DNA from: Astropecten irregularis
Lineage: Eukaryota; Echinodermata; Asteroidea; Paxillosida; Astropectinidae
NCBI GenBank assembly: GCA_963971285.1
Contig: OZ020244.1
Span: forward strand, 1,984,001 to 2,048,000
Direction of reading: 5' to 3'
DNA: 64,000 nt
Of this stretch, positions 1 to 57,591 are shown in pieces (the first letter of the stretch is position 1; each line of letters begins with the position of its first letter). Both the position numbers and the translations under genes were made by a program. The notes under the pieces were generated by a model. The model did not search any database. It saw only the letters and a list, made by a program, of their open reading frames with translations, and had not been told where the DNA came from.

Positions 1-149
1 AGGACTCATTTGTCGCTGCAGATTCACCCATTCAGTTTTATTGTTAAATTTGTTGAATTTTATTTAGATAAATGTATGGTTCAGGATTTATTTTAGTTTT
101 ATTATTTCATGTAGTTGATGTAGGACGGTAAATTTATAATTTCAAAGCA

Positions 150-475
150 TGTTTTCCATGTGTTGGAAAAAATTTGATCTCATTACTTTGTCCTTGCTAG
201 TGTTTCCCATGGGTTGGAAAATATTTTACCTCATCACTTTGTCCTTGCTAGTGTTTTCCGTGGGCTTGAAAATATTTTACCTCATCACTTTGTCCTTGCT
301 AGTGTGTTCCATGGGTTGGAAAATATTCTACCTCATCACTTTGTCCTGCCTAGTATTTTCCACGGGCTGGAAAATATTCTACCTCATCACTTTGTCCCTG
401 CTAGTGTTTTCCATGGGTTGGAAAATATTCTACCTCATCACTTTGTCCTTGCTAGTGCTTTCCATGGGTTGCCAA
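150..475. repeat. 51-bp minisatellite (about 6 units), left arm
   Basis: About six copies of a 51-bp unit containing the core TCATCACTTTGTCCTTGCTA. Because 51 is divisible by three, the array stays open in more than one frame and mimics a repetitive protein. It recurs in reverse at 20,415-20,690, where flanking sequence contains an extra short insertion. Confidence 0.9.
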
Positions 476-1039
476 ACACCTATGTTAACTTTTTTTGAAG
501 TGTTTGCCATAGTTTTAAGTTACCAGATTATGCATTTAAGTAGGTCTACATTAATTAATCCTGAACCATACCTTAAATTATATGTATTTAGTTTTAAAGC
601 AAAGAGCAGGGGATATTTTTTCTTAACCTGGCTTGCAAATGTGCTAATTAAAAACCACTAGACACATTCCAAATTCTTTTATTTATCAACTCTTCCCAAT
701 TTTGCCGGCAAAAGTCAATTGCGCTGCGCTATTCAATCTTGTGCACTTACAACCACCACATAATGTCTGCACTGCGTATGACACTACACTGCTTGATAGT
801 TCAAAACCTGTACTTTTCATTCAATTTTTTTTTTTTTTTTAATGATTTCAAATTCCATTAATGCGGTCTGACTGTTTGGATGTGCGATGATGAAAAGCCA
901 GATTAGTTGAAATATCCACTGCTGTTTGATATTGCATGTATGTAATTTTTTGTGTCTGTCCAAATCAGACTGTAACTTGGTACAATAGGACGCTGCGTAA
1001 TGCACTTCATTCAACTCATCTGAATAGATTGCGTTTCTT

Positions 1040-1395
1040 TACAGTAAAAATGCAGGACATTTAGAATATGCACGCTTCCACCAAAAACAAATGAGGAATT
1101 CTTTGCAAAATGCAAAACCTTGAAACTAAAATCACATTAGAAATCTTTTTTGCGCATTTTTGTTCAGTACAAATTTACAATTTTTGGAATACACCAAAAC
1201 ATAATTTTATTTTTAAACAAAATTCAAAATCTTAAGGCTAAACGAAAATCACATTGAAAACTTTTTTGCACATTCTTGTACGATAGAGATTAGGAATTTT
1301 TATAATGTGCGCGTATAAACCAAAACAGAGTGAGCCGTTTTTTGCAAAATCTAAAAGAAATTCTGCGCCTGAATCACAAATGCAAAACTTTTTTT
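1040..1395. repeat. Diverged ~115-bp tandem repeats, left arm
   Basis: Three degenerate copies share the order TTTTTTGCAAAAT, then AAACCTTGAAA-like, then ATCACATT, then TTTTTTGCGCATT-like and a TGTAC-like motif. The mirrored copy lies at about 19,470-19,835. A related pair lies outside the palindrome at 59,270-59,450. Confidence 0.55.
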
Positions 1396-2799
1396 CAGCC
1401 AGTTACATGTGTGCCTGATTTGGACAGAAAGTGTAATGTACATTTATGTGTAGTCAATATGAGAATCACTCCATCAAACTGAGTCCAATACCGCATTCTA
1501 AAACAAGCAGCGCAGCACAGTACATCTGCACACCCTACTCACAAACATATGAAATAAGAATGAAAATTGTGTGAAATTTTAAATTGATAAGGATAATTGT
1601 GCGGATTTCTCACATTAGATCTCAAAATTCAAGTTCTTACCCTAAAATTTGAAAAATGCATCTTACATAGGCTTTCTTTTTTCTTTTTTGAAATTCTTTT
1701 TGATGAAATGAAATTCCTTTTGAAATTTTTTTTTTTTTTTACTCACAATTCACACTTGGTTTGGCAGAGTGGTTCTCATTTTGAAATGCACTTTACTGGA
1801 ATGCTTTAAGGTTTCATGAAAAAACAAACAAAAACAAATGCAAACGTGTGCTGCTGGTTGGCGCCCTCTACTGTCTGCAGCATGTAACAGCCAGAAATAA
1901 CCCAAGTGTTATGGGTGGTAGGTCCTCTGTTGGATGAAATCTGCTCAGTGTACTACTGTTGTTCTGCATCATCGGTATCTAAACTCACATGATTTGACAA
2001 GCTTATTGGCCAAAACGTACGACATCCTCTAAAAGCGCGGTATAGAGAAGAAAGGATTCCTGTTGCTACCTAAAGTCTTTGGGGTCTGTATGGGGCGGGG
2101 ATTGAGGGCTGATTCTTTATTTATCCTTTTGTTAGTTCCCGTCATCTTATTAACTTGTTCCTGTGTAACCAGGTCTCTTTTCAGGCCGGTCATGATGACC
2201 AACTATTTTCTGCATGAACAGGACGACTGCTTCTGATCTGAGGGGGCTCGTGACCTGATGGATGACAGTGACCTCTTTCCAGGTGTTGGTGTGAGGGTTG
2301 GATAAATAGTGTTCTTACATGGCTGATTCACTTTGACCAAAAAAGTACTATGGAACAGGTATTCAGGTTTTACTTTGGTTTCACTTGTGTAGTATGAACT
2401 AAATACATGAAGTGCAGGAAATATCAAAGATGACGTTGGTTTTATGTAGGAAGGGAAGCTGGTCCTTTATCATAAACTCAATGCTTAAGCAAGCTGCTGT
2501 TCTGAGTCAAGTGCAATTTTTATACCTGTCACTTCTGTTTGTCATGGGGTGGCCTATTCATTGCTCTGGGTGAGCATCTCTTTACAGTCTGATCCTACAT
2601 ACAATCATCTGTTTAAGGCTGAAATGGCAGGGCCATTGAACTTGGTGTTGAATACAGTGCCTTTTGAAAATTTTGCACCATGTTCCAACTGGCAGATAAA
2701 TTATCAAAATTGTACTTTTTTGACCTTATACTGCCATTGTATCCACTTGCAAATATGCCTAGTTACATATTTTGCTGTATGGGTAAACACTCGAAAGTG

Positions 2800-3735
2800 T
2801 GTGTGATATTGCATATTTTGCAGCACCATTATAGAAACACTGTGCAGTGTTGCAGGTGTGCTATTGCATATTTTGCAGCAATGGTATAGAAACACGAGGC
2901 AGTGTTGCAGGTGTGCTATTGCATATTTTGCAGCATTGGGTATAGAAACACTAGGCAGTGTTGCAGGTGTGCCATTGCATATTTTGCAGCATTGGGTATA
3001 GAAACACTAGGCAGTGTTGCAGGTGTGCTATTGCATATTTTGCAGCATCCGTATAGAAACACTAGGCAGTGTTGCAGGTGTGCCATTGCATATTTTGCAG
3101 CATCCGTATAGAAACACGAGGCAGTGTTGCAGGTGTGCTATTGCATATTTTGCAGCATTGGGTATAGAAACACGAGGCAGTGTTGCAGGTGTGCTATTGC
3201 ATATTTTGCAGCATTGGGTATAGAAACACTAGGCAGTGTTGCAGGTGTGCTATTGCATATTTTGCAGTTTTGGGTATAGAAATGCTAGGCAGTGTTGCAG
3301 GTGTGCTATTGCATATTTTGCAGTTTTGGGTATAGAAACACTACGCAGTGTTGCAGGTGTGCTATTGCATATTTTGCAGCTTCGATACTGAAGACTATAT
3401 AGGCAGTGTTGCATGTGTGCTATTGCATATTTTGCAGCAGTGTTGCAGGTGTGCCATTGCATATTTTGCAGCAGTGTTGCAGGTGTGCTATTGCATATTT
3501 TGCAGCAGTGTTGCAGGTGTGCCATTGCATATTTTGCAGCAGTGTTGCATGTGTGCTATTGCATATTTTGCAGCAGTGTTGCAGGTGTGCTATTGCATAT
3601 TTTGCAGCAGTGTTGCAGGTGTGCTATTGCATATTTTGCAGCATCGATACTGAAGACTATATAGGCAGTGTTGCATGTGTGCTATTGCATATTTTGCAGC
3701 AGTGTTGCAGGTGTGCCATTGCATAATTTGTAGCA
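2800..3735. repeat. Two-period minisatellite (56-bp and 34-bp units), left arm
   Basis: The first part (to about 3,390) is made of ~56-bp units: a 34-bp core containing GTGCTATTGCATATTTTGCA plus a GGGTATAGAAACACTAG-type linker. From about 3,400 the linker is mostly lost and the 34-bp core repeats alone about nine times, broken by a CGATACTGAAGACTATATAG spacer. Frames through it read as cysteine-rich repeats but are by-products of the repeat. Confidence 0.92.
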
Positions 3736-3749
3736 ATGAGGACTGTCAA

Positions 3750-3930
3750 CTCCAGCTAGATTGGCAGTTGAATGGTTGAGACACCTGCATGTACAAGCAG
3801 GATGTTGTTGGTTCAAATCCAGCTTGAGTTGGTCTGTGTTCTTTCCCTCTCACAGATAAACCAAGCACTTGATACACACATATTAATCAATGGAGCACAA
3901 CCTAATCTAACTTGTATCTTAGATGATGAT
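3750..3930 (+). repeat. tRNA-derived SINE, degenerate
   Basis: A tRNA-like head ends in a B-box-like GGTTCAAATCC near 3,810 and is followed by a body with CTCTCACAG and AAGCACTTGATACA. These resemble the bodies of the better preserved SINEs at 29,345 and 44,710. The mirrored copy is at about 17,115-17,290 on the minus strand. Confidence 0.5.
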
Positions 3931-4149
3931 AACTCAGACAGCAGCATGCTTAATGTTCTTATACATCGTGGATATAAGTCCGTGTGCCTCCTCCATTTCG
4001 CTTTACAAATTTGCCCGAGAGATCATAAGTTCAACTTTCTATGTGCTCATATGACAAGCTTGGCAACAGAAAAGGTTTTAGTATTACTTGTGTGGTTCAA
4101 AATGGTCAAAATTGTCATCAGATACAAAGCTCTCATTTGATTCTCGGCA

Positions 4150-4310
4150 GAATCAAAGCAATGCAAACTCCCTGGTCATTGGACCACCTCATCCCTCCTT
4201 AGACAATCTCAACTCCTTGCGGAGTACGCAGCTCTGGCTGCTGTTCAGACACACAAAGGCTAATCAAATACAAAGCCAACACCTACCCTTACAAATAACC
4301 TAGAAAATCA
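4150..4310 (-). repeat. SINE tail fragment
   Basis: Reverse complement of the 3' body of the SINE family seen complete at 44,405 and 45,537: the 'gagttgagattgt' segment, the pre-terminal 'tgaccaggga' and the 'aggctaatcaaa' box are recognisable. The mirrored copy is at about 16,745-16,905. Confidence 0.6.
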
Positions 4311-4529
4311 GAAAATCAAACCCCAGTGTTTAAGAACTGGAAGTCAAAATATCAAAGTCAACAAGTCAACAAGTCAACGATGAGAATTCCTTGGTCATGC
4401 ATATAGAAAAGGTTAAAGGTTGAGGTCAAAGGTATTACATCCTAGTTCAGCTCACTGTAATAATGCAAATAATTCAAAAATACGCTCATCTGACTGTTGA
4501 AATTGCAATGCAATTTGATCACATGACGT

Positions 4530-4745
4530 GTCTGGTCACTGGGCCAAATTATCAGTCCAGAGATCATCTAAACTCTGTGGGGAGTATGCATCCCAAGCTG
4601 CTGTTGAAGCACACAGAGGTTAATTAATTATACAAATATTCATTACTACCCTTACAGGTAACTCATTTACTCCTTGTTGGAGAGAAACATTTAATTGCAA
4701 AGTGTCTTGCTTAAGGACACTTGATCTCCTTGACTGGGCTCAAGC
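4530..4745 (-). repeat. SINE body fragment
   Basis: Second copy of the same SINE family. On the minus strand it reads through a 'cttaagcaagacactttgcaa' type box, an 'aaggagtaaatgagtacctgt' type box (partly altered) and the 'actccccacagagttt' segment. Mirrored at about 16,315-16,530. Confidence 0.65.
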
Positions 4746-6145
4746 CCATAAACTCAAATCAGCTTCGTGAGAATAATGCATCAGACCTAATAGCCACAGC
4801 ACCACAATGTAGGAATATCAGTCAGGCACACTTACATGCTAAGCTTGTGCCTGAACTGTTTAGTCCTGTCAAAATTATGACAAAATCGGACACCAAAAAG
4901 GAAAGAAATGATTCCAAACCACACTGAATTTGAATGTTATCAAGTATTATTGAGCATTCATTAAGTTATGCAAATATTACATTTGAAAAGATAACCAAGT
5001 TTAAACGAGTAAGGACACAGATTTGGTGTTCATCTCTAATTCATTTTAAATTACGGTACGTGTACTGTTCACAAGCAGAATTCATAGACTAAAACATGTT
5101 CCGTCAACTGTGTATCAATAGTTTGATGTCTGAACTAATCTCATTACGGTCGCTGCTTCTGTAGAGTCCAAGTTTGTCATATGAGCCATACGGGTATTTT
5201 CCAACGTCACATTTGGGTTTTATATTGCTTAAATTTCTCCTTCATAAGCTCAATGTCATCTACAATATTTCCTGTTTGGATATTTTGCCTTTAACTGCAT
5301 ACAGCTTACTGTTTTCAATCACCTTTATCATTCAGCTTAACTAAAATACAAGCGTCCTAAAAAAAATGCAAAGCAAGTGTAACAGATATCTTGCAGTAAT
5401 CTAGGTGTGATCATTCTTTTGTACAAAACCCAAGAATACGTTGATATTAGTTACTTTTTCATCACTTAATCAGTGATGAAGTATCTCAATTCAAATATTA
5501 AATTATTTTGATTCATTAAGTTCTTACGACACAAGTGAAACCAATTAAAACTTGAGAACCAGCCTCACTCAAAGTGCCACAAACGTTTAGATTTTTCCAA
5601 TTTCCGTTGTGCCGAGAGCAGGAACTATAATCTTTGCCAAAACAGTGAAATCCAGCCATGTTTGAATGTTATTTCTCTTACCAGCACATGATCATCTGCG
5701 CTGAAGTTGTTGTCATTCTGAGGGTCAAGGACTCAATTAGTGATGTTGTGGAAGTTCTAGTAAATACGGCCTTTAATTTTTTGCTTTTTTATCCAAAAGT
5801 CATTTCCCAAAACCGTTTTCCAAGAACATATAGCGGCCTGATTGCCTGAACAGGGGGTGACATCCGAAAAACCCCCATACCGGTCCAGCAAAGTTTGAGC
5901 GAGCAACAAAGAATCCTTTCTGACCTTTGTTATTATAATTATTGACCTTTTCAATGGCGCGAACCTAAACCACAATAGCTTGTCAATCATGTGTTGTAGG
6001 ATACCGGTGCATGCAGGGCACCAGTTGTACATTGGCAGATTTTGGCCAACAGAGGGCCTACCACTCATAACACTTGGGTTATTTTTGGTTGTTACATGTT
6101 GCAGACAGTAGAGGGCGCCGACCAGCAGCACACGTTTGCACTTGT

Positions 6146-9100
6146 TAAAAAAAAATTTTTTTTTTTTTTGAAAAAAAATTTGAATAGGGGTCCCCCTGTA
6201 ATAAATCTTTGCGGAAAAAAGTAACCTACCCTCTTTCGTGTCCTTTTTTAAAACGTTGAAAAGCCCCTCCCTCCTGAGGAGGTGGAGAGGAGCTTTGTGG
6301 TTGACCAAGGATGCTTCATTCAAAAATGAAGTAAAAGTGGCTACATCCCTCATTAGAAACGCCCCCAAAATACAACCTCTATGGTCATTAGCATTTAACC
6401 CCTACACCTTAATTATGCAGAGGTCATATGATAATGATCAAAAGATAGCATTTGTGGGATATATTTCAACAAGCAATGTAACCCCTTTTAATGACACCGT
6501 TTCCCAACATGCTCTGTGACCTTCCTGCGCGCTACATGCTAGACTTCTATTGTGCATGAAACTACCAGTGGGTGCTTGAAAAATTGGCCATGTAAATGTC
6601 TTGCAGCGCAAGTAATTGTACTGGGTTTTTTGTTAGGTAAAAAAAAAAACACGACCGAAACAAATGCTTATGCTCTGAACTTATGACTGTTAGCAGTGCA
6701 AGTATCTTTTGATTTTTGTTTTATTTTTCAAAATGTTCACAATAGTTGAACCAAAATGTTTATGTACTGAACTTATGATTATGAATGTTAGCAGCGTGAT
6801 CAAATGATTTGGTTTTTTGTTTTACTTTTCAGAACTTTTACAACAGTTGGACCACAATATATGCATCATCACTTGCGCCAAATTTGTACGCATAATTAGA
6901 GTGTCAGAAGATGAAAGGTCACAAAACAAGGTAAGAAACAACACCTTATAAGCACACAGCCTGCTACTTTGTAACGAGTCGGACCAAGATGTGTTTTGAC
7001 AAAGTTTTGATGCGCATAACAGTTTTATTTCAACAATGAAACACGCGGTCTTTTCTTTTAATTACCGACATAAATAGCTTACAACCCATCTTCTTAAAAA
7101 GGATGTCCAGATAAAAGAAAATTTATTTCAATTCAGCCAATTTTGGCATTGTACGCAAATTTGGATTTGGCTTTGGACGCAATGCTTGAAAATTGGAAGC
7201 AATCTGTGCTGCTTCATAAAATGTGTAGTTTGCAAAACAGTTTGGTTCTTATGGCGCTATTTCAATTTTGAAATTATACGCAAATTTGCTGATTTTGTTT
7301 GACGCAATGCTTGCAAATTGGAAATGTGCTAAGCTGCTTCATAAAAATGCTTAGTTTGCTAGACAGCGAGGCTTCTTAATTACACTTATTTGATATTTTG
7401 GCATTGTTCGACATTAGTAAATTGAAAAACTAAGAAATAATCAATGCACGCAATTTAGGATCCGACTCATTGTACAGTAACATGCTACATACTTTATCCT
7501 TGGTCAACCATTTATTGGAGTTTTTCATTAGCCACCTGATGTTCAACCATTACTCTATGATTTTTGGATTTGAACTGCGCGATTTAAAAAAAAAAAAAGC
7601 TATGATCGACCATTACTCTTTTATTTTGGAATTTGAAATTTCAACAAGACTTCTAAAGCTGCGCCAATTAAAAAAAAAAAAAAAACAACAACCCTTTTTT
7701 TCAAGCAACAGAATTTAATTGAATTGAAATAAAGTAGAAAAATGAACAACTTTCCACAATTGCAGAAAGATTTTAAATACACAAGGTTTTTGGACTTTTG
7801 ACAAAAGGAAACAAACCGTCCGTGTAGCATCATCACACAGGACTTGACGCGCAATTTATCTTGTGTATTTGTTTTGTTCAATAAATGTTTAAACATCAAA
7901 CGGCAAACTTTCCTCCTTTTTTGATAACCCATTCAGTCAGCTAATGAATCACAAAACAATGGAATGCCACAGGCACTCAAAATGAGCAGTTTTACTTTTC
8001 ATTACTCAATATGAACCTAGTTTGAGAGACCCATTTTATGGTTTGTTCCTTTTTCATGAAATTGTTGCCAGAAATCTTAACTTTGACTACTTTGTCCAGA
8101 AGTTAAATAACGACGAAAATCTGTTGTGGAACTCAGTGAAAGATCAGACGCTAAACAGCATTTTATCATAAACCTTATGTCAATTTATTTGAAATGGATA
8201 TATTTTATCATTGGTCTGGAATCCAAATTCAAGGGGATCTTTTAAATTAATTATTTTGCAGATACATGTAATCATTTGGAATTGTATATTTTTTTTCTGT
8301 TTCTGGGTAATTTTTTTTAGGCTTAACTAATTGCATGTTTTCTTCTTTTTCTTCATAACAGGCAGTTAACTACTGTAGTTCATCTGGTTACACTCCTCGT
8401 CAACACGGTACACGAGCAGACCTGGACACAACATCGTAGACTTCGTAGATGCAGCAGGATTTCATTTTTCTCCTGAAAAATATAATTGAAAATTTTGAAA
8501 ATTGAGAATGACACTACGTAATGGATAGTCAGTTCAGTTTTAAGGTAGAATAATGTTCAACTGTGCTTATGTTTTTTATTTCAACAAAATGTTGTGCAGT
8601 AGCCACTCAAAAAGGAAACGGGTTAACTCATCAATAACTTAGCTTTTACCCGAGATAAGTCTTCCTCTGTACTTGTGTTTCAAGTTGATTTTTATTGTTT
8701 TGTATGTTTGTGACACCAAGGATGGATAAGTATTTTTTTTCCATTAAAAGTTTGATTCATTATGGAGGACTTTGAACTTCTCACAGGCAATACCTAATTG
8801 AAGAATCTTTGCCTTAATATGGAAATAGCAACATAAATGGGGGTGGAAGTAGTGGGTAGAACGTGATTCTCAAGAAGTATGTAGGCTATGGGATTTTATG
8901 CGTCCAAATTGTAAATAATTTTGGAAAATGCCTGACCTGCACTTTGAATTTATTCAGGAATTTGTTTGTACATCTTGGCTTTTAAATGGACATTATTTTC
9001 TTCATGGAATCAAATATGTCTTCGTCAATGTAATAAATTGAGAAATGACTTGAAAGTTGAAGCCGAATGAAATGAAAAGCCTACGGTTTGAAAATGTTTT

Positions 9101-9640
9101 CTAGTGCTATAGGACCCCAAATCTCCAACCTCCCTGCCCGACGGAAAAACTATAGAGCAGACGTTTTATACTAGATTGAAATTGTAGTAGAAAAAATGAG
9201 AGGCCCGAAGTAAAACTAGAAGAAATACAAGGCGATTTTTGTTCAACCTAAAATGGCCGCCATGGCCATGCTTGCTCAACACTGTGCTATTAAATTTAAG
9301 TTCTCTGAAAAAATGGACATTTTCCGCTGAAAAATTTCCCCTAAGCCCCACAAAATGTTCTTAAAATTAATTACTTTACCTTTGAATGCCTCATATGTTT
9401 GGCAGTCTTGGATTCACGAAACAGAAATTTTCGACGAGAAGATTTTTCCGATTTTGAAGAGAGGTAAGATTTACTGGCCTTCTCGTGTGATGACGAACCT
9501 CATGAATGAATGAATTTCCCGCCGCGCCCAAGATAGTACCCAGAATCCCTTGCAAGCCCATTCATAAACGCACGTGTAACAATGGATAGTACATTACATA
9601 GGGGCGTGGGAAGGGGGGGGGGCTGTATTTGTGTATGAAT
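6146..9640. other. Left-arm stretch without recognised genes
   Basis: No convincing exon was seen. Two short tandem duplications are visible: about 115 bp at 6,645-6,860 (ends near TGTTAGCAG and ATGTTC/TTTTCA segments) and about 120 bp at 7,136-7,370 (GACGCAATGCTTG and GCTGCTTCATAAAA). The whole stretch is mirrored at about 11,520-14,920. Confidence 0.6.
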
Positions 9641-10504
9641 ATTAATCCCCGTCTAGAACTAGGAGTGGCACCCCCTGTCAGAAATCTACCCCGGGGGAAC
9701 CACTCCTAGATGAAAGCCGCTATATAAGACCATTGAATTTACGGTCAATTACGATTATTTTAAGAATAGGAGTGGAACCCCTACATTATGACCGTGAGCT
9801 CCATGCTCTGGCCAACCCGGGGGGACCACTCCTAGATGAAAACAACTATATAAGACCATTGAATCTACGGTAAATTAATATTATTAAGAATAGGAGTGGC
9901 ACCCCTACAATATGACCGTGAGATCCATGGGCTAGCCGGGGAAACCACTCCTAGATGAAAGCCAGTATATAAGACCATTGAATTTATGGTCAATTAAGAT
10001 TAATCTAGGAGTGGTTTCCCCGGCTAGCCCATGGATCTCATGGTCTTAAGATCGGGGAGCCACTCCTATTCTTAACAATAATAACAATAGGAGTGGCTCC
10101 CCCGACCTTAAGACCGTGAGCTCCAAGATCTGGCCAACTCGGGGGGACCACTCCTAAATAAAAGCAGTATATAAGACCATTTAATCTACGGTAAATTAAT
10201 AATATTGTTAAGAATAGGAGTGGCTCCCCGATCTTAAGACCGTGAGATCCATGGGCTAGCCGGGGAACCACTCCTAGATTAATCTTAATTGACCATAAAT
10301 TCAATGGTCTTATATACTGGCTTTCATCTAGGAGTGGTTCCCCGGCTAGCCCATGGATCTCACGGTCATAATGTAGGGGTGCCACTCCTATTCTTAACAA
10401 TAATATTAATTTACCGTAGATTCAATGGTCTTACATACTGGCTTTCATCTAGGAGTGGTCCCCCCGGGTTGGCCAGATCATGGAGCTCACGGTCATAATG
10501 TAGG
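9640..10504. repeat. Central array of ~119-bp units, before the gap
   Basis: Tandem units contain CCACTCCTAGATGAAA, a TATATAAGACCATTGAAT box, a TAAGAATAGGAGTGGC box, ATGACCGTGAG and GGGCTAGCCGGGG. Units run in one direction to about 10,078 and then reverse. Residues 10,043-10,078 pair with 10,203-10,238, and 9,892-9,908 pair with 10,373-10,389. This leaves an asymmetric spacer of about 124 bp (10,079-10,202) as the palindrome centre. Confidence 0.85.
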
Positions 10505-10704
10505 NNNNNNNNNNNNNNNNNNNNNNNNNNNNNNNNNNNNNNNNNNNNNNNNNNNNNNNNNNNNNNNNNNNNNNNNNNNNNNNNNNNNNNNNNNNNNNNN
10601 NNNNNNNNNNNNNNNNNNNNNNNNNNNNNNNNNNNNNNNNNNNNNNNNNNNNNNNNNNNNNNNNNNNNNNNNNNNNNNNNNNNNNNNNNNNNNNNNNNNN
10701 NNNN
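10505..10704. other. Assembly gap, 200 N
   Basis: Exactly 200 unknown bases, a fixed-size scaffolding gap rather than a measured one. The flanks are copies of each other (9,853-10,504 and 10,705-11,357), so the gap probably has no real length. Confidence 0.97.
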
Positions 10705-11520
10705 AGACCATTGAATCTACGGTAAATTAATATTATTAAGAATAGGAGTGGCACCCCTACAATATGACCGTGAGATCCATGGGCTAGCCGGGGAAACCAC
10801 TCCTAGATGAAAGCCAGTATATAAGACCATTGAATTTATGGTCAATTAAGATTAATCTAGGAGTGGTTTCCCCGGCTAGCCCATGGATCTCATGGTCTTA
10901 AGATCGGGGAGCCACTCCTATTCTTAACAATAATAACAATAGGAGTGGCTCCCCCGACCTTAAGACCGTGAGCTCCAAGATCTGGCCAACTCGGGGGGAC
11001 CACTCCTAAATAAAAGCAGTATATAAGACCATTTAATCTACGGTAAATTAATAATATTGTTAAGAATAGGAGTGGCTCCCCGATCTTAAGACCGTGAGAT
11101 CCATGGGCTAGCCGGGGGAACCACTCCTAGATTAATCTTAATTGACCATAAATTCAATGGTCTTATATACTGGCTTTCATCTAGGAGTGGTTCCCCGGCT
11201 AGCCCATGGATCTCACGGTCATAATGTAGGGGTGCCACTCCTATTCTTAACAATAATATTAATTTACCGTAGATTCAATGGTCTTACATACTGGCTTTCA
11301 TCTAGGAGTGGTCCCCCCGGGTTGGCCAGATCATGGAGCTCACGGTCATAATGTAGGGGTGCCACTCCTATTTTTAAAATAATCGTAATTGACCGTAAAT
11401 TCAATGGTCTTATATAACGGCTTTCATCTAGGAGTGGTTCCCCCGGGGTAGATTTCTGACAGGGGGGTGCCACTCCTAGTTCTAGACGGGGATTAATATT
11501 CATACACAAATACAACCCCC
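10705..11520. repeat. Central array of ~119-bp units, after the gap
   Basis: Bases 10,705-11,357 repeat 9,853-10,504 in direct orientation with one extra G in a G-run (near 11,114). The rest continues as the reverse units that open the right arm. If the duplicated part is collapsed, the arms become symmetrical about one centre. Confidence 0.88.
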
Positions 11521-14500
11521 CCCCTTCCCACGCCCCTATATAATGTACTATCCATTGTTACACGTGAGTTTATGAATGGGCTTGCAAGGGATTCTGGGTA
11601 CTATCTTGGGCGCGGCGGGAAATTCATTCATTCATGAGGTTCGTCATCACACGAGAAGGCCAGCAAATCTTACCTCTCTTCAAAATCGGAAAAATCTTCT
11701 TGTCGAAAATTTCTGTTTCGTGAATCCAAGACTGCCAAACATATGAGGCATTCAAAGGTAAAGTAATTAATTTTAAGAACATTTTGTGGGGCTTAGGGGA
11801 AATTTTTCAGCGGAAAATGTCCATTTTTTCAGAGAACTTAAATTTAATAGCACAGTGTTGAGCAGGCATGGCCATGGCGGCCATTTTAGGTTGAACAAAA
11901 ATCGCCTTGTATTTCTTCTAGTTTTGCTTCGGGCCTCTCATTTTTTCTACTACATTTTCAATCTACTATAAAACGTCTGATCTATAGTTTTTCCGTCGGG
12001 CAGGGAGGTTGGAGATTTGGGGTCCTATAGCACTAGAAAACATTTTCAAACCGTAGGCTTTTCATTTCATTCGGCTTCAACTTTCAAGTCATTTCTCAAT
12101 TTATTACATTTACGAAGACATATTTGATTCCATGAAGAAAATAATGTCCATTTAAAAGCCAAGATGTACAAACAAATTCCTGAATAAATTCAAAGTGCAG
12201 GTCAGGCATTTTCCAAAATGATTTACAATTTGGACGCATAAAATCCCATAGCCTACATACTTCTTGAGAATCACGTTCTACCCACTACTTCCACCCCCAT
12301 TTATGTTGCTATTTCCATATTAAGGCAAAGATTCTTCAATTAGGTATTGCCTGTGAGAAGTTCAAAGTCCTCCATAATGAATCAAACTTTTAATGGAAAA
12401 AAATACTTATCAATCCTCGGTGTCACAAACATACAAAACAATGAAAATCAACTTGAAACACAAGTACAGAGGAAGACTTATCTCGGGTAAAAGCTAAGTT
12501 ATTGATGAGTTAACCCGTTTCCTTTTTGAGTGGCTACTGCACAACATTTTGTTTAAATAAAAAACATAAGCACAGTTGAACATTATTCTACCTTAAAACT
12601 GAACTGACTATCCATTACGAAGTGTCATTCTCAATTTTCAAAATTTTCAATTATATTTTTCAGGAGAAAAATGAAATCCTGCTGCATCTACGAAGTCTAC
12701 GATGTTGTGTCCAGGTCTGGTCGTGTACCGTGTTGACGAGGAGTGTAACCAGATGAACTACAGTAGTTAACTGCCTGTTATGAAGAAAAAGAAGAAAACA
12801 TGCAATTAGTTAAGCCTAAAAAAAATGACCCAGAAACAGAAAAAAATATATACAATTCCAAATGATTACATGTATCTGCAAAATAATTAATTTAAAAGAT
12901 CCCCTTGAATTTGGATTCCAGACCAATGATAAAATATATCCATTTCAAATAAATTGACATAAGGTTTATGATAAAAAGCTGTTTAGCGTCTGATCTTTCA
13001 CTGAGTTCCACAACAGATTTTCGTCGTTATTTAACTTCTGGACAAAGTAGTCAAAGTTAAGATTTCTGGCAACAATTTCATGAAAAAGGAACAAAACATT
13101 AAATGGGTCTCTCAAACTAGGTTCATATTAAGTAATGAAAAGTAAAACTGCTCATTTTGAGTGCCTGTGGCATTCCATTGTTTTGTGATTCATTAGCTGA
13201 CTGAATGGGTTATCAAAAAAGGAGGAAAGTTTGCCGTTTGATGTTTAAACATTTACTGAACAAAACAAATACACAAGATAAATTGCGCGTCAAGTCCTGT
13301 GTGATGATGCTACACAGACGGTTTGTTTCCTTTTGGCAAAAGTCCAAAAACCTTGTGTATTTAAAATCTTTCTGCAATTGTGGAAAGTTGTTTATTTCTC
13401 TACTTTATTTCAATTCAATTAAATTCTGTTGCTTGAAAAAAAGGTTTGTTTGTTTTGGTTTTTTTAATTGGCGCAGCTTTAGAAGTCTTTTTGAAATTTC
13501 AAATTCCAAAATAAGAGTAATGGTTGAACATCAGGTGGCAAATGAAAAACTCCAATAAATGGTTGACCAAGGATAAAGTATGTAGCATGTTACTGTACAA
13601 TGAGTCGGATCCTAAATTGCGTGCGTTGATTATTTCTTAGTTTTTCAATTTACTAATGTCGAACAATGCCAAAATATCAAATAAGTGTAATTAAGAAGCC
13701 TCGCTGTCTAGCAAACTAAGCATTTTTATGAAGCAGCTTAGCACATTTCCAATTTTCAAGCATTGCGTCAAACAAAATCAGCAAATTTGCGTATAATTTC
13801 AAAATTGAAATAGCGCCATTAGAACCAAACTGTTTTGCAAACTACACATTTTATGAAGCAGCACAGATCGCTTCCAATTTTCAAGCATTGCGTCCAAAGC
13901 CAACTCCAAATTTGCGTACAATGCCAAAATTGGCTGAATTGAAATACATTTTCTTTTATCTGGACATCCTTTTTAAGAAGATGGGTTGTAAGCTATTTAT
14001 GTCGGTAATTAAAAGAAAAGACCGCGTGTTTCATTGTTGAAATAAAACTGTTATGCGCATCAAAACTTTGTCAAAACACATCTTGGTCCGACTCGTTACA
14101 AAGTAGCAGGCTGTGTGCTTATAAGGTGTTGTTTCTTACCTTGTTTTGTGACCTTTCATCTTCTGACACTCTAATTATGCGTACAAATTTGGCGCAAGTG
14201 ATGATGCATATATTGTGGTCCAACTGTTGTAAAAGTTCTGAAAAGTAAAACAAAAAACCAAATCATTTGATCACGCTGCTAACATTCATAATCATAAGTT
14301 CAGTACATAAACATTTTGGTTCAACTATTGTGAACATTTTGAAAAATAAAACAAAAATCAAAAGATACTTGCACTGCTAACAGTCATAAGTTCAGAGCAT
14401 AAGCATTTGTTTCGGTCGTGTTTTTTTTTTTACCTAACAAAAAACCCAGTACAATTACTTGCGCTGCAAGACATTTACATGGCCAATTTTTCAAGCACCC

Positions 14501-16314
14501 ACTGGTAGTTTCATGCACAATAGAAGTCTAGCATGTAGCGCGCAGGAAGGTCACAGAGCATGTTGGGAAACGGTGTCTTTAAAAGGGGTTACATTGCTTG
14601 TTGAAATATATCCCACAAATGCTATCTTTTGATCATTATCATATGACCTCTGCATAATTAAGGTGTAGGGGTTAAATGCTAATGACCATAGAGGTTGTAT
14701 TTTGGGGGCGTTTCTAATGAGGGATGTAGCCACTTTTACTTCATTTTTGAATGAAGCATCCTTGGTCAACCACAAAGCTCCTCTCCACCTCCTCAGGAGG
14801 GGAGGGGCTTTTCAACGTTTTAAAAAAGGACACGAAGGAGGGTAGGTTACTTTTTTCCGCAAAGATTTATTACAGGGGGACCCCTATTCAAAATTTTTTT
14901 CAAAAAAAAAAAAAATTTTTTAACAAGTGCAAACGTGTGCTGCTGGTCGGCGCCCTCTACTGTCTGCAACATGTAACAACCAAAAATAACCCAAGTGTTA
15001 TGAGTGGTAGGCCCTCTGTTGGCCAAAATCTGCCAATGTACAACTGGTGCCCTGCATGCACCGGTATCCTACAACACATGATTGACAAGCTATTGTGGTT
15101 TAGGTTCGCGCCATTGAAAAGGTCAATAATTATAATAACAAAGGTCAGAAAGGATTCTTTGTTGCTCGCTTAAACTTTGCTGGACCGGTATGGGGGGTTT
15201 TCGGATGTCACCCCCTGTTCAGGCAATCAGGCCGCTATATGTTCTTGGAAAACGGTTTTGGGAAATGACTTTTGGATAAAAAAAGCAAAAAATTAAAGGC
15301 CGTATTTACTAGAACTTCCACAAAATCACTAATTGAGTCCTTGACCCTCAGAATGACAACAACTTCAGCCCAGATGATCATGTGCTGATTAGAGAAATAA
15401 CATTCAAACATGGCTGGATTTCACTGTTTTGGCAAAGATTATAGTTCCTGCTCTCGGCAAAACGGAAATTGGAAGAATCAAAACGTTTGTGGCACTTTGA
15501 GTGAGGCTGGTTCTCAAGTTTTAATTGGTTTCACTTGTGTCGTAAGAACTGAATGAATCAAAATAATTTAATATTTGAATTGAGATATTTCATCACTGAT
15601 TAAGTGATGAAAAAGTAAGTAATATCAACGTATTCTTGGGTTTTGTACAAAAGAATGATCACACCTAGATTACTGCAAGATATCTGTTACACTTGCTTTG
15701 CATTTTAGGACGCTTGTATTTTAGTTAAGCTGAATGATAAAGGTGATTGAAAACAGTAAGCTGTATGCAGTTAAAGGCAAAATATCCAAACAGGAAATAT
15801 TGTAGATGACATTGAGCTTATGAAGGAGAAATTTAAGCAATATAAAACCCAAATGTGATGTTGGAAAATACCCGTATGGCTCATATGACAAACTTGGACT
15901 CTACAGAAGCAGCGACCGTAATGAGATTAGTTCAGACATCAAACTATTGATACACAGTTGACGGAACAAGTTTTAGTCTATGAATTCTGCTTGTGAATAA
16001 TACATGTACCGTAATTTAAAATGAATTAGAGATGAACACCAAATCTGTGTCCTTACTCGTTTAAACTTGGTTATCTTTTCAAATGTAATATTTGCATAAC
16101 TTAATGAATGCTCAATAATACTTGATAACATTCAAATTCAGTGTGGTTTTGAATCATTTCTTTTTTTTTTGGCGTCCGATTTTGTCATAATTTTGACAGG
16201 ACTAAACAGTTCAGGCACAAGCTTAGCATGTAAGTGTGCCTGACTGATATTCCTACATTGTGGTGCTGTGGCTATTAGGTCTGATGCATTATTCTCACGA
16301 AGCTGATTTGAGTT

Positions 16315-16905
16315 TATGGGCTTGAGCCCAGTCAAGGAGATCAAGTGTCCTTAAGCAAGACACTTTGCAATTAAATGTTTCTCTCCAACAAGGAGTAAAT
16401 GAGTTACCTGTAAGGGTAGTAATGAATATTTGTATAATTAATTAACCTCTGTGTGCTTCAACAGCAGCTTGGGATGCATACTCCCCACAGAGTTTAGATG
16501 ATCTCTGGACTGATAATTTGGCCCAGTGACCAGACACGTCATGTGATCAAATTGCATTGCAATTTCAACAGTCAGATGAGCGTATTTTTGAATTATTCGC
16601 ATTATTACAGTGAGCTGAACTAGGATGTAATACCTTTGACCTCAACTTTTAACCTTTTCTATATGCATGACCAAGGAATTCTCATCGTTGAGTTGTTGAC
16701 GACCAACTTTGATATTTTGACATCCAGTTCTTAAACACTGGGGTTTGATTTTCTGATTTTCTAGGTTATTTGTAAGGGTACGTGATGGCTTTGTATTTGA
16801 TTAGCCTTTGTGTGTCTGAACAGCAGCCAGAGCTGCGTACTCCGCAAGGAGTTGAGATTGTCTAAGGAGGGATGAGGTGGTCCAATGACCAGGGAGTTTG
16901 CATTG
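16315..16905 (+). repeat. Two SINE body fragments, right arm
   Basis: Mirrored copies of the SINE pieces at 4,150-4,310 and 4,530-4,745, here reading on the plus strand at about 16,315-16,530 and 16,745-16,905. Diagnostic segments are the 'aagacacttt' box, 'aaggagtaaatgagttacct' and 'aggagttgagattgtc'. Confidence 0.62.
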
Positions 16906-17318
16906 CTTTGATTCTGCCGAGAATCAAATGAGAGCTTTGTATCTGATGACCATTTTGAACCACACAAGTAATACTAAAACCTTTTCTGTTGCCAAGCTTG
17001 TCATATGAGCACATAGAAAGTTGAACTTATGATCTCTCGGGCAAATTTGTGAAGCGAAATGGAGGAAGCACACGGACTTATATCCACGATGTATAAGAAC
17101 ATTAAGCATGCTGCTGTCCCAGTTATCATCATCTAAGATACAAGTTAGATTAGGTTGTGCTCCATTGATTAATATGTGTGTATCAAGTGCTTGGTTTATC
17201 TGTGAGAGGGAAAGAACACAGACCAACTCAAGCTGGATTTGAACCAACAACATCCTGCTTGTACATGCAGGTGTCTCAACCATTCAACTGCCAATCTAGC
17301 TGGAGTTGACAGTCCTCA

Positions 17319-18180
17319 TTGCTACAAAATATGCAATGGCACACCTGCAACACTGCTGCAAAATATGCAATAGCACACATGCAACACTGCCTATATAGTC
17401 TTCAGTATCGATGCTGCAAAATATGCAATAGCACACGTGCACTACTGCGTAGTGTTTCTATACCCAATGCTGCAAAATATGCAATAGCACACCTGCAACA
17501 CTGCCTCATGTTCCTAATACCCAATGCTGCAAAATATGCAATGGCACACCTGCAACACTGCCTAGCATTTCTATACCCAATACTGCAAAATATGCAATAG
17601 CACACCTGCAACACTGCCTAGTGTTTCTATACCCAATGCTGCAAAATATGCAATAGCACACCTGCAACACTGCCTAGCGTTTCTATACCCAATGCTGCAA
17701 AATATGCAATAGCACACCTGCAACACTGCCTAGTGTTTCTATACCCAATGCTGCAAAATATGCAATAGCACACCTGCAACACTGCCTCGTGTTTCTATAC
17801 CCAATGCTGCAAAATATGCAATGGCACACCTGCAACACTGCCTAGTGTTTCTATACCCAATGCTGCAAAATATGCAATAGCACACCTGCAACACTGCCTC
17901 GTGTTTCTATACCCAATGCTGCAAAATATGCAATAGCACACCTGCAACACTGCCTCGTGTTTCTATACGGATGCTGCAAAATATGCAATGGCACACCTGC
18001 AACACTGCCTAGTGTTTCTATACCCAATGCTGCAAAATATGCAATAGCACACCTGCAACACTGCCTCGTGTTTCTATACCATTGCTGCAAAAATATGCAA
18101 TAGCACACATGCAACACTGCACAGTGTTTCTATATAGGTGCTGCAAAATATGCAATATCACACACACTGTCGAGTGTTTA
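17319..18180. repeat. Two-period minisatellite, right arm
   Basis: Reverse-complement partner of 2,800-3,735. Here the ~56-bp unit makes up almost the whole array and only about two of the short 34-bp units remain, at 17,319-17,400. The two arms have therefore changed their repeat numbers independently. Confidence 0.9.
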
Positions 18181-20414
18181 CCCATACACCAAAATATGTA
18201 ACTAGGCACATTTGCAAGTGGATACAATGGCAGTATAAGGTCAAAAAAGTACAATTTTGATAATTTATCTGCCAGTTGGAACATGGTGCAAAATTTTCAA
18301 AAGGCACTGTATTCAACACCAAGTTCAATGGCCCTGCCATTTCAGCCTTAAACAGATGATTGTATGTAGGATCAGACTGTAAAGAGATGCTCACCCAGAG
18401 CAATGAATAGGACACCCCATGACAAACAGAAGTGACAGGTATAAAAATTGCACTTGACTCAGAACAGCAGCTTGCTTAAGAATTGAGTTTATGATAAAGG
18501 ACCAGCTTCCCTTCCTACATAAAACCAACGTCATCTTTGATATTTCCTGCACTGCATGTATTTAGTTCATACTACACAAGTGAAACCAAAGTAAAACCTG
18601 AATACCTGTTCCTTAGTACTTTTTTGGTCAAAGTGAATCAGCCATGTAAGAACACTATTTATCCAACCCTCACACCAACAACTGGATAGAGGTCAGTGTC
18701 ATCCATCAGGTCACGAGCCCCCTCAGATCAGAAGCAGTCGTCCTGTACATGCAGAAAATAGTTGGTCATCATGACCGGCCTGAAAAGAGACCTGGTTACA
18801 CAGGAACAAGTTAATAAGATGACGGGAACCAACAAAAGGATAAATAAGGAATCGGCCCTCAATCCCCACCCCATACAGACCCCAAAGACTTTAGGTAGCA
18901 ACAGGAATCCTTTCTTCTCTATACCGCGCTTTTAGAGGATGTCGTACGTTTTAGCCAATAAGCTTGTCAAATCATGTGAGTTTAGATACCGATGATGCAG
19001 AACAACAGTAGTACACTGAACAGATTTCATCCAACAGAGGACCTACCACCCATAACACTTGGGTTATTTCTGGCTGTTACATGCTGCAGACAGTAGAGGG
19101 CGCCGACCAGCAGCACACGTTTGCATTTGTTTTTGTTTGTTTTTTCATGAAACCTTAAAGCATTCCAGTAAAGTGCATTTCAAAATGAGAACCACTCTGC
19201 CAAACCAAGTGTGAATTGTGAGTACATTTTTCAAATTTTAGGGTAAGAACTTGAATTTTGAGATCTAATGTGAGAAATCCGCACAATTATCCTGATCAAT
19301 TTCAAATTTCACACAATTTTCCTTCTTATTTCATATGTTTGTGAGTAGGGTGTGCAGATGTACTGTGCTGCGCTGCTTGTTTTAGAATGCGGTATTTGAC
19401 TCAGTTTGATGGAGTGATTCTCATATTGACTACACATAAATGTACATTACACTTTCTGTCCAAATCAGGTACACATGTAACTGGCTGAAAAAAAGTTTTG
19501 CATTTGTGATTCACGCGCAGAATTTCTTTTAAATTTTGCAAAAAACGGCTCACTCTGTTTTGGTGTATAGGCGCACATTCTAAAAATTCCTAATCTCTAT
19601 CGTACAAAAATGCGCACAAAAATTGTCAATGTGATTTTCTTTTAGCTATAAGATTTTGATTTTTTTTTAAAATAAAGTCATGTTTTGGTGTATTCCAAAA
19701 ATCCTTAATTTGTACTGAACAAAAATGCGCAAAAAAGATTTCTAATATGATTTTAGTTTCAAGGTTTTGCATTTTGCAAAGAATGTCTCATTTGTTTTTG
19801 GTGGAAGCGCGCATATTCTAAATGTCCTGCATTTTTAATGTAAAGAAACACAATCTAACATTTGAGTTGAATAAAGTGAACTACGCAGCGTCCTACTGTA
19901 CCAAGTTACAGTCTGATTTGGACAGACACAAAAAATTACATACATGTAATATCAAACAGCAGTGGATATTTCAATTAATCTGGCTTTTCATCATCGCACA
20001 TCCAAACAGTCAGGCCGCATCAATGGAAATAAATGGAAAAAAATAAATAAATAAAATGAATGAAAAATACAGGTTTGGAACTATCAAGCAGTGTAGTGTC
20101 ATACGCGCAAAGCAGACATTATGTGGTGGTTGTAAGTGCACAAGATTGAATAGCGCAGCGCAATTGACTTTTGCCAGCAAATTTGGAAAGAGTCGATAAA
20201 TAGAAGAATTTGGCATTAGTCTAGTGGTTTTCCTTCGCACATTTGCAAGCCAGGTTAAGAAAAAATATCCTATGCTCTTTGCTTTAAGACAAAATACATA
20301 TAATTTAAGGTATGGTTCAGGATTAATTAATGTAGACCTTCTTAAATGCATAATTATTTGTTAACAAAAACTATGGCAAACACTTCAAAAAAGCCAAGTT
20401 AACATAGGTGTTTG

Positions 20415-20690
20415 GCAACCCATGGAAAGCACTAGCAAGGACAAAGTGATGAGGTAGAATATTTTCCAACCCATGGAAAACACTAGCAAGGACAAAGTGA
20501 TGAGGTAAAATATTTTCCAGCCAACGGAAAACACTAGCAAGGACAAAGTGATGAGGTAGAATATTTTCCAACCCATGGAAAATACTAGGCAGGACAAAAT
20601 GATGGGGTAGAATATTCTCCAACCCACAGAAAAAACTAGCAAGGACAAAGTGATGAGGTAGAATATTCTCCAACCCACAGAAAACAGTGG
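20415..20690. repeat. 51-bp minisatellite, right arm
   Basis: Reverse-complement partner of the array at 150-475, with about five units containing the core TAGCAAGGACAAAGTGATGA. Confidence 0.88.
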
Positions 20691-20859
20691 CGGATCTCTA
20701 AAGTGCTTTGAAATTATAAATTTACCATCCTACATCAACTACATGAAAAAGTGAAACTAAAATAAATCCTGAACCATACATTTATCTAAATATAATTCAA
20801 CAAATTTAACAATCAAACTGAATGGGTGAATCTGCAGAGACAAATGAGTCCTTTCCACT

Positions 20860-22755
20860 CCAAGAAACAAATGAACACATTTTCTGACATTCCCACTCCA
20901 GAGAAGAGATGCACAAAGTTTCTTATATTCCCTCTTCAGGGAAGAGATGCACAACGTTTCTGATATTCCCTCCCCAGGGAAGAGATGCACAAAGTTTCTG
21001 ACATTCCCCATGTTTCTAACATTCCCACTCCAGGGATGAGATGCACACATTTTCTGACATTCCCTCTTAGGGAAGAGATGCACAAAGTTTCTGACATTCC
21101 CTCTTCAGGGAAGAGATGCACAAAGTTTCTGATATTCCCTCTTCAGGGAAGAGATGAACAAAGTTTCTGACATTCCCAATTTTAGGGAAGAGATGCACAA
21201 AGTTTCTGACATTCCCAATTTTAGGGAAGAGATGCACAAAGTTTCTGACATTCTCTCTTCAAGGAAGAGATGCATAAAGTTTCTGATATTCCCTCTTCAG
21301 GGAAGAGATGCACAAAATTTCTCCCATTCCCATTCCAGGGAAGAGATGCACAAAGTTTCTAACATTCCTTCTTCAGGGAAGAGATGCACAAAGTTTCTAA
21401 CATTCCCACTCCAGGGAAGAGATGCACAAAGTTTCTGATATTCCCTCTACAGGGAAGAGATGCACAAAGTTTCTGACATTCCCCATGTTTCTAACATTCC
21501 CACTCCAGGGATGAGATGCACACATTTTCAGACATTCCCTCTTAGGGAAGAGATGCACAAAGTTTCTGACATTCCCTCTTCAGGGAAGAGATGCACAAAG
21601 TTTCTGATATTCCCTCTTCAGGGAAGAGATGAACAAAGTTTCTGATATTCCCTCTTCAGGGAAGAGATGCACAATTAACAAAGTTTCTGACATTCCCTCT
21701 TCGGGGAAGAGATGCACAAAGTTTCTGACATTCCCTCTTAGGGAAGAGATGCACAAAGTTTCTGATATTCCCTCTTCAGGGAAGAGATGCACACAGTTTC
21801 TGACATTCCCTCTTAGGAAAGAGATGCACAAAGTTTCTGACATTCCCTCTTCAGGGAAGAGATGCACAAAGTTTCTGACATTCCCTCTTCAGGGAAGAGA
21901 TGCACAAAGTTTCTGATATTCCCTCTTCAGGGAAGGGATGCAAAAAATTTCTCCCATTCCCTCTTCAGGGAATAGATGCACAAAGTTTCTGACATGCCCT
22001 CTTCAGGGAATAGATGCACAACGTTTTTGATATTCCCACTGCAGGGACGAGACGCACAAAGTTTCTGATATTCCCTCTTCAGTGAAGAGATGCACAAAGT
22101 TTCTGACATTCCCTCTCAGGGAAGAGATGCACAAAGTTTCTGACATTCCCTCTTCAGTGAAGAGATGCACAAAGTTTCTGACATTCCCTCTTAGGGAAGA
22201 GATGCACAAAGTTTCTGATATTCCCTCTTCAGGGAAGAGATGCACAAAGTTTCTGACATTCCCTCTTAGGGAAGAGATGCACAAAGTTTCTGATATTCCC
22301 TCTTCAGTGAAGAGATGCACAAAGTTTCTAACATTCCCTCTTTAGGGAAGAGATGCACAAAGTTTCTAACATTCCCTCTTCAGTGAAGAGATGCACAAAG
22401 TTTCTGATACTATCTCTTCACGGAAGAGATGCACAAAGTTTCTGACATTCCCTCTTCAGGGAAGAGATGCACAAAGTTTCTGACATTCCCACTCCAGGGA
22501 AGAGATGCACAAGGTTTCTGGTATTCCCACTCCAGGAAAGAGATGCACAAAGTTTCTGATATTCCCTCTTCAGGGAAGAGATGCACAAGGTTTCTGGTAT
22601 TCCCACTCCAGGAAAGAGATGCACAAAGTTTCTGATATTCCCTCTTAGGGAAGAGATGCACAAGGTTTCTGGTATTCCCACTCCAGGAAAGAGATGCACA
22701 AAGTTTCTGACATTCCCTCTCCAGGGAAGAGATGCACAAAGTTTCTGACATTCCC
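20860..22755. repeat. 38-bp minisatellite of about 50 units
   Basis: Unit GGGAAGAGATGCACAAAGTT followed by TCTGACATTCCCTCTTCA, 38 bp, with variants (CACTCCA for CTCTTCA, GATATT for GACATT). A larger block is itself duplicated: the odd segment with CCCCATGTTTCTAACATT occurs at about 21,000 and again at about 21,480. Many apparent reading frames on both strands are caused by the repeat. The array begins right where the palindrome arm ends in this window. Confidence 0.95.
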
Positions 22756-23620
22756 ACCAAAGGGGGTGGGTTTGGAGTGAACTCATTTTGTCTCCTTAAT
22801 TCACCAAGCAGTACATCCAGTTGATTATTATTGTATTTTAGCCTTAATAAACAAACTAACAGTTCTAAACTCATGTGCTTGAACACCATTTTCAAAACAT
22901 TCTTTTAGAATATCTTCCCATTGGGCAGAGCATTGTGGTTTTTGTCACATTTTAAAGTTTTGTGTAATTTAACTAAATGTGACTTTCTGTTGCTTTGGTG
23001 GACATACAAAAAAGTTGTGGTATGTGCTTAAAGTGTAAAATGTCAGTGTAGCTTTCATGCCATGCCAAACATTTATATTTTGAAAATGTGAAAGTTTTGG
23101 GCCGGTTGTCTTTTAAATTGGTGAGCAATGTTTTTTTTCAAGATTTCAATCACATGAGTTTAAGAACCAAATAAAAGTAGCAATTACTTTATGATGGGGC
23201 TCTTCATCTTGTCGCTTCTTCTTGTCGAAGGTGTAGCATCGTCATGGAAAATTTGATGATGAGGTCCTCAAATGGTAAGCTGGCCTGTGGAAACAAATAA
23301 AATCAATAAAAAGGGAAAATCAATGCAAGTTCTATGCAAATAAAATGGCCTTAAGTCAGTTAAGTAAAAAGGTAGCTACCAAGCAAAGAAATCCCTCGAC
23401 AGAGCAGCAGAAGGTAGTAATTAATTATTGCCATATTTTGGTCATGCAAAAAAATGAACATAAAGATAAAATTTGAAATAAATTAAGATAACAATAATAA
23501 CTAAAGAGTTATGTAAATTAATTTTGGGCAATGGTATGGCGAAATGCTAAATGTATACACAACTAGGCTTTTAATATGAAGTGAGGCTTGAGGCTAAGCT
23601 TGGGATTTATTTTGCTACCA
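22756..23620. other. Intergenic, nothing recognised
   Basis: AT-rich sequence between the minisatellite and the LINE. No exon, RNA or repeat family could be supported. Confidence 0.5.
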
Positions 23621-57535: not shown

Positions 57536-57541
57536 GCCGGA

Positions 57542-57591
<50 letters not shown>

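Follow-up and report, generated by a model that had tools for sequence, protein, structure and literature searches.

The window analysed here is a stretch of 64,000 nucleotides of Astropecten irregularis (assembly GCA_963971285.1, 475.7 Mb in 168 contigs; scaffold C1, OZ020244.1, positions 1984001-2048000), which opens with a large palindrome. We consider it highly probable that this is a real palindrome of about 33 kb and one of about 30 divergent pairs near scaffold ends, which originated head to head, was spread by duplication and has been kept alike over its inner 8.5 kb by gene conversion. The origin would have been a head-to-head duplication at a foldback array in the centre, followed by multiplication of the palindromes through duplication near chromosome ends and by homogenisation of the inner arms from one arm to the other, perhaps with the hairpin-prone foldback centre helping or priming the conversion.

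Structure of the window palindrome

Self-comparison of the window revealed an inverted repeat over the whole of positions 1-20852, in agreement with the initial annotation made from the sequence. Alignment of the arms gave 9492 matches, 288 mismatches and 33 gap openings (one of them being the unmatched end of the given stretch), a likeness far beyond chance. The arms differ, as that annotation had also described, by point changes, indels and repeat copy number; copy numbers are unequal between the 56-bp and 34-bp arrays of the left arm (2801-3735) and the 34-bp and 56-bp arrays of the right arm (17320-18163). The size of about 20 kb given originally was too small, the start of the window cutting the left arm. 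C1:1978074-1983972 pairs in reverse with window positions 27456-21563 at 89.6%, and the arms, of about 16 kb each, reach C1:1978074 on the left and window position 27456 on the right, the whole covering about 33.4 kb of scaffold. Here the match stops: among the 40 best matches listed, all that the left flank (C1:1964001-1978073) had in common with the right flank was repeats, 815 bp long at most and 76-79% identical.

A run of 200 N at 10505-10704 lies on the palindrome axis, and the window therefore joins two contigs at this point. Positions 9853-10504 were found to recur as 10705-11357, 652 of 653 columns being identical and the remaining one an indel within a run of G. Since the contig ends overlap with the same sequence, the scaffold gap is spurious and the second copy of the centre is redundant, an unmerged contig overlap. 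The spacer at the axis is indeed short, as first reported, with 122 bp at 10081-10202 and its bases repeated at 10933-11054. It is not self-complementary (56 identities, 10 mismatches and 112 gap positions), and its asymmetric sequence has the same orientation in both contigs, which makes sound the earlier argument that contig ends crossing the centre speak against a join of haplotypes. The central array, of which the left contig's copy lies at 9658-10504 (boundaries by eye), is composed of short inverted repeats, with units bounded by GGAGTGG/CCACTCC as judged by eye. As single-stranded DNA, the 652 central bases gave a predicted fold of −291.6 kcal/mol versus a mean of −72.5 kcal/mol for 20 shuffles.

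Outside the arrays, 175 of 8082 sites differ between the window arms. The scattered differences of the initial annotation are thus real, yet they are distributed unevenly: a change point at 1318/19565 separates an inner zone with 103 differences at 7248 sites (1.42%) from an outer zone with 72 at 834 (8.63%), the log likelihood ratio being 58 compared with at most 9.0 in 200 permutations. The putatively homogenised inner arms thus occupy 1319-10080 (−) and 11055-19564 (+), while the outer left arm at 1-1318 (−) continues upstream of the window and the more diverged outer right arm extends over 19565-27456 (+). Within the inner zone, the spread of differences over 28 bins was not significantly uneven (p 0.12). 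Just outside it, at 19565-19900, divergence between the left and right arms of the window (W_L and W_R) is 9.3% (31/335). This is similar to the 9.7-17.3% between W_R and those other C1 arms that offer 60 sites or more, the top value resting on 81 sites. In the window, a zone of conversion would accordingly end sharply, about 8.5 kb from the centre.

Related palindromes and the likeness of their arms

A search with the window centre located eight related C1 sites, near 0.88, 1.00, 1.17, 1.76, 2.21, 2.37, 3.13 and 3.47 Mb, and 20 kb was examined at every one of them (copies A to H) as well as at one locus of scaffold C18 (copy K); together with the window (W) they are called type 1. Copy B (C1:994001-1014000), 1 Mb from the window, is a palindrome uninterrupted by any gap, and 140 of 6863 sites distinguish its arms. 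Both arms are present in C, E, G, K and the window, each with a 200-N gap no more than about 1 kb away from the axis, and A, D, F and H consist of a 200-N gap followed by the right arm only. A break at the centre or close to it (up to about 1 kb from the axis, or directly before the arm) in nine of the ten type-1 loci suggests that the palindrome itself defeats assembly; the missing left arms of A, D, F and H may have been purged. All nine C1 loci carry the central array at the axis, the centres of the copies matching that of the window at 77-96%. On both sides of B and C, the arms reach homologues of window 32.3-33.0 kb, and those palindromes therefore span at least about 40 kb. The left flanks of the half-palindromes F and H (C1:2357001-2367138 and C1:3459001-3469077) are homologous to each other, with 87% over 5.9 kb and 90% over 3.0 kb, and are repeat-rich towards the gap.

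Sixteen type-1 arms were aligned, 14 of 14 from C1 and two of five from C18. Within the six two-armed palindromes, the left and right arms differ by 0.8-3.8%, namely at 107/7161 sites in W, 140/6863 in B, 181/6314 in C, 53/6640 in E, 151/6699 in G and 216/5696 in K, where the value for C includes a bin spoiled by the gap (17.8%, 298 sites) and that for K two poorly aligned outer bins. Between palindromes, divergence was 0.9% (A_R-B_R), 1.1% (B_L-C_L), about 6%, 11.5% and up to 20% (B_R and A_R versus K_R). A type-1 arm thus resembles its partner in the same palindrome more closely than it resembles the arms in other subgroups. The alike zone of copy E extends further out than that of the window, with 1/335 differences at 19565-19900 and 8/264 at 19900-20250.

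Quartet counts were obtained for the 15 pairs among the two-armed palindromes (A, D, F and H, lacking the other arm, were left out). In 14 of these, nearly all informative sites group the two arms by palindrome, e.g., 242:0:0 for W-B, 235:1:1 for W-C, 554:1:0 for W-E, 498:3:1 for W-G, 589:0:1 for W-K and 137:0:0 for E-G. We read this grouping as probable gene conversion from arm to arm. Arm A_R is a mosaic of other arms: along its length the closest arm is first B_L (one 500-bp segment without any difference), next C_R and finally B_R (two segments without any difference), a pattern expected of conversion tracts.

Several observations weigh against so simple a picture. The B-C quartet was reversed (1:47:1), showing that the test can detect the opposite outcome; C_L, which hardly differs from B_L, could stem from a recent duplication or represent a misplaced allele. 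The window arms are 1.5% apart, yet only 1.9% from D_R, the other arm of D being missing, and D_R was the nearest arm to W_R in six of 14 segments and to W_L in three of 14. Likewise, F_R was often the arm nearest to G_R, and B_L was never nearest to B_R. Within the subgroups window-D, F-G and A-B-C, the arms therefore mix and the picture is less clear-cut. The outer window arms are uneven in themselves (4.6-6.2% at 22829-24807, 7.5-10.1% at 24808-27251). The guanine-cytosine (GC) content of the arms (0.380 and 0.382) is not raised over that of the flank (0.383), so that the GC signature of primate X palindromes is absent. The centre of copy K is unlike the C1 centres, which leaves a single origin of all copies not proven. 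Finally, the evidence on the window palindrome comes from a single assembly, in which its own centre is joined by contig overlap and not by single molecules.

The last point touches the possibility, likewise raised in the initial annotation, that the locus is an assembly artefact, either two haplotypes scaffolded head to head or a fold-back read. The 200-N gap on the axis, an arm divergence of 1.4-8.6% that could be heterozygosity, the four of nine C1 type-1 loci showing only a right arm after a gap, and C_L, which lies beside copy C and may be a misplaced B_L allele, would all agree with it. Allelic flanks should match beyond the arms, but those of the window differ; moreover, the spacer points the same way in the two contigs, no gap interrupts copy B or three of the C18 pairs, and the geometry of the paired modules described below is common to 30 of 30 pairs. 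Since the outer flanks differ and copy B is gap-free, the window locus is not a haplotype join, and a fold-back read fails on the same grounds; an artefact of either kind is very improbable. No report of haplotigs in inverted orientation was found in a literature search. The real inverted duplication, with or without partial gene conversion, that the initial annotation had offered instead is borne out by copy B with its distinct arms, by the non-matching flanks and by 14 of 15 quartets. It is harder to separate conversion from age. Palindromes formed anew and recently at each locus or in each subgroup would owe their arm identity to youth and would show the same grouping of arms by palindrome, the common central array could be a hotspot of repeated head-to-head duplication, and hybrid pairs (see below) show that a divergent pair can exist without alike arms. 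We nevertheless hold recent origin to be improbable, as the nine C1 loci have the array at the axis in common, the window's alike zone stops sharply within longer arms, and A_R switches its nearest relative along its length.

Divergent pairs and conserved modules

The right arm of the window contains two modules that recur beyond the type-1 palindromes. Module m1 (276 bases, 15137-15412, +) was found at about 80% at no fewer than 21 further sites, with 40 of 69 candidates scored, and module m2 (18629-18843, +) at no fewer than 13 sites outside type-1 arms, with 40 of 89 candidates scored. Type-2 sites are among those that carry m2. In 12 of these 13 sites, an m1 core of like orientation is found 2.2-2.9 kb nearer the centre. 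The left arm carries m1 at 5639-5948 (−; C1:1989639-1989948), matching window 15120-15430. A 35-bp core of m1, at 15332-15366 (+) and 5703-5737 (−) in the window, gave 68 matches in the genome at up to two mismatches; its reversed control gave none.

These 68 cores form 30 pairs and eight singles. All 30 pairs are divergent (minus, then plus), the cores being 8555-12268 bp apart, where the spacing as listed for the window is too long, being inflated by the gap and the redundant overlap. The matches are distributed over C18 (35), C1 (26), C15 (4), C23 (2) and C28 (1), and 67 of 68 are situated in four terminal domains, on C1, C18, C15 and C23, at 0.06-3.7 Mb from the nearest scaffold end. C18 and C23 end in TTAGGG arrays, which are absent at the start of C1 and the end of C15 as fetched.

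Nine of the 30 pairs were examined in sequence, the other 21 being known from their module pairs alone. Seven of the nine are inverted repeats (W, B, C, E, G, K and one locus of a second type, type 2) and two are hybrids of both types. At the type-2 locus, C18:20212900-20222600, an inverted repeat runs without a gap; identity is 97.4% across 872 columns and falls to about 94% in the 0.8 kb that follow. This locus matches the window arm only in m1 and one 107-column stretch. Among the 68 cores, a single core base served to tell type 1 from type 2. In three pairs, one arm is of type 1 and the other of type 2 (C18:17890378/17899483, 18998588/19009419 and 19618975/19627987). The two hybrids examined are gap-free, with arms alike mainly at m1 (78-79%) and in a central foldback of 0.7-0.95 kb (83-89%). 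If conversion is what keeps most pairs palindromic, as we read it, such hybrids may be pairs that are not, or not yet, homogenised; occurring in three of 30 pairs, they would imply that it is the divergent architecture and not the sequence that is preserved.

Two blocks of the right arm, at 14655-15255 (+; left equivalent at about 5815-6415, −) and 18455-19205 (+; left equivalent at 1759-2524, −, matching window 18440-19205), are less diverged between palindromes than the remaining sequence, with 54/1349 versus 613/4564 for W-E, 80/1337 versus 692/4435 for E-K and 61/1351 versus 316/4789 for W-B. Module m2 belongs to the second block. Taken together with the modules, this is compatible with each arm being a noncoding unit with two conserved modules and with the locus working as a head-to-head pair, possibly with two outward noncoding transcripts, a proposal that we make tentatively. 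If it applied, such a locus could be, e.g., a bidirectional noncoding, small-RNA-producing locus or an element for the pairing of chromosome ends. That some 30 head-to-head noncoding pairs, with conserved modules at near-constant distance and orientation round a hairpin-prone centre, constitute an unrecognised near-telomere element is a related suggestion, and a rather doubtful one.

Coding and RNA searches were made in the arms. The annotation had noted no recognisable gene; this held in so far as 46 arm open reading frames (ORFs) gave no Pfam match at E 0.001 (best E 0.015 for ten ORFs and 0.0083 for 36), whereas these 46 are only part of the listed ORFs, the right arm alone having 101 of at least 45 residues, and a weak reverse-transcriptase match (RVT_1, 24640-25179, −, E 1.2e-05, below the Pfam curated cut-off) occurs in the outer right arm, beyond the range annotated at first. 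The left arm also matches this stretch. No transposase or other element protein was detected among the 46 ORFs. In m1 and m2, no lasting reading frame was found (m1 judged by eye). No Rfam family matched the window arms at gathering score, and at a lax threshold the right arm gave only matches below gathering score, e.g., a tRNA-like one at 17224-17297 (−) with 27.2 bits versus 29; microRNA models below gathering score fall on the central hairpins. In viral_contigs, neither the exact 21-base pattern of the central array nor a 214-residue ORF had a relative. With no Pfam match in the 46 ORFs, no frame shared by all arms in the three blocks examined and no significant codon-position signal, protein-coding arms were discarded as a candidate.

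Some of the results on the blocks count against functional units in the arms. No ORF is open across all arms in the three blocks examined, and the best p in the codon-position scan (0.0016 among 590 overlapping tests) is not significant. Structured RNA in the conserved blocks was rejected, the best alifold z of −3.6 comparing with −3.5 to −5.6 in a control block. The two blocks were picked after viewing the divergence profile, so that p-values computed for them are too small, and within the window palindrome they are not less diverged (20/1351 versus 75/4988).

Two further explanations account for the family without such units. Subtelomeres readily duplicate and exchange, and duplication and conversion could explain everything if the loci were neutral near-telomere sequence with modules merely preserved by exchange between loci or by low mutation. 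This alternative has to be taken seriously, and we see it as a distinct possibility somewhat short of even; the unreduced divergence of the blocks within the window palindrome and the absence from the modules, in our searches, of a gene, an Rfam family or a specific structure speak for it. Against it stand the conservation of the same blocks between C1 and C18 copies (E-K), the presence of m1 in types 1 and 2 where little other arm sequence aligns, and the pair orientation and spacing kept in all 30 pairs. The other explanation, a giant foldback-type transposon family inserted at many sites, would fit the central array common to the C1 copies and the long, internally repetitive inverted repeats with a foldback centre, which resemble foldback elements such as Tetris (PMC4079207). 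It is unlikely, since the copies compared lack common ends (the window arms stop near 27456, those of B and C only at the homologues of 32.3-33.0 kb), 67 of the 68 module copies cluster in the four terminal domains instead of being dispersed, the 46 arm ORFs scanned contain no transposase or element protein, and three loci combine a type-1 with a type-2 arm. Defined ends of the foldback type were not apparent from the differing arm extents of the window, B and C, no search for target-site duplications having been made. We therefore retain the reading of a duplicated, conversion-homogenised palindrome family.

Comparison with known systems and further features

The best-known cases of gene conversion between the arms of large palindromes come from mammalian sex chromosomes, where the repeats bear genes. 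Conversion between arms has been described for the human Y palindrome P6 (PMC3723533) and a raised GC signature for primate X palindromes (PMC8981503). These systems share with the present one large inverted repeats and arm-to-arm conversion in multi-kilobase tracts (PMC3723533, PMC8981503). Their arms are, however, more than 99.9% alike, compared with 96-99% for the cores here; (testis-expressed) genes belong to the mammalian type, whereas no gene was found in the arms here; and the raised GC of the primate X palindromes is lacking here. Furthermore, unlike theirs, our loci lie near the ends of several scaffolds, and about 30 pairs share modules. An arm identity above 99%, usual for the mammalian type, was reached only by E (99.2%) among six palindromes, the window core having 98.5%.

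In Caenorhabditis, arms of long inverted repeats are more alike within a locus than to homologous arms elsewhere, which was read as active maintenance (PMC1803023). The same relation holds here; the Caenorhabditis repeats, however, hold pairs of paralogous genes, their intergenic arms measure 124-160 bp, and the comparison there was between species, while here the arms, in which no gene was recognised, resemble each other along about 8.5 kb and loci within a single genome are compared. Invertebrate genomes with several large palindromes also include those of Folsomia candida (11) and, as cited in the same paper, Adineta vaga (17) (PMC5490193). Those are palindromic gene blocks with, in Folsomia, a wide Ks range, and concerted evolution was not the explanation of the authors (PMC5490193), whereas here 14 of 15 comparisons place the two arms of a palindrome together. 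Tetris and similar foldback transposons (PMC4079207) likewise have a foldback centre, and tandem repeats make up their inverted repeats internally; the copies compared here differ in lacking common ends, in being nearly confined to scaffold ends and in being tens of kilobases long.

A limited search of titles and abstract openings on animal, subtelomere and invertebrate palindromes returned no description of a gene-free subtelomeric palindrome family. A multi-copy family near several chromosome ends, with no gene recognised in it and with hybrids as natural controls, could show what conversion needs (length, identity or a hairpin centre) and would allow the question of what keeps palindromes when no gene is at stake. 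The family is also a warning that palindrome centres break assemblies, four of the nine gapped type-1 loci appearing one-armed.

Among the other features of the window, a 38-bp tandem array occupies 20855-22755 (+) in the outer right arm. Positions 44923-50243 (+) encode SRCR, somatomedin-B and 7tm_2 domains, as in an adhesion-type receptor. With 61 of 103 candidates scored, the 729-residue receptor frame had its only close paralogue at C1:2166931-2169150 (−), in pieces of 90% and 80%. The paralogue's mirror position, to the left of palindrome E, points to a larger inverted duplication with a centre near C1 2.10 Mb; among the same scored candidates, there were many frames of 700-850 codons matching the receptor at about 30%, a good share of them on C23 and C19. 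A separate imperfect palindrome of 720 bp with 85% identity was located at 55417-56136, and smaller ones at 36526-36987 and 38922-38988. A tRNA-like stretch without clear anticodon lies at 44810-44882 (−, 45.2 bits), and a tRNA-Phe(GAA) gene at 57536-57608 (+, 64 bits).

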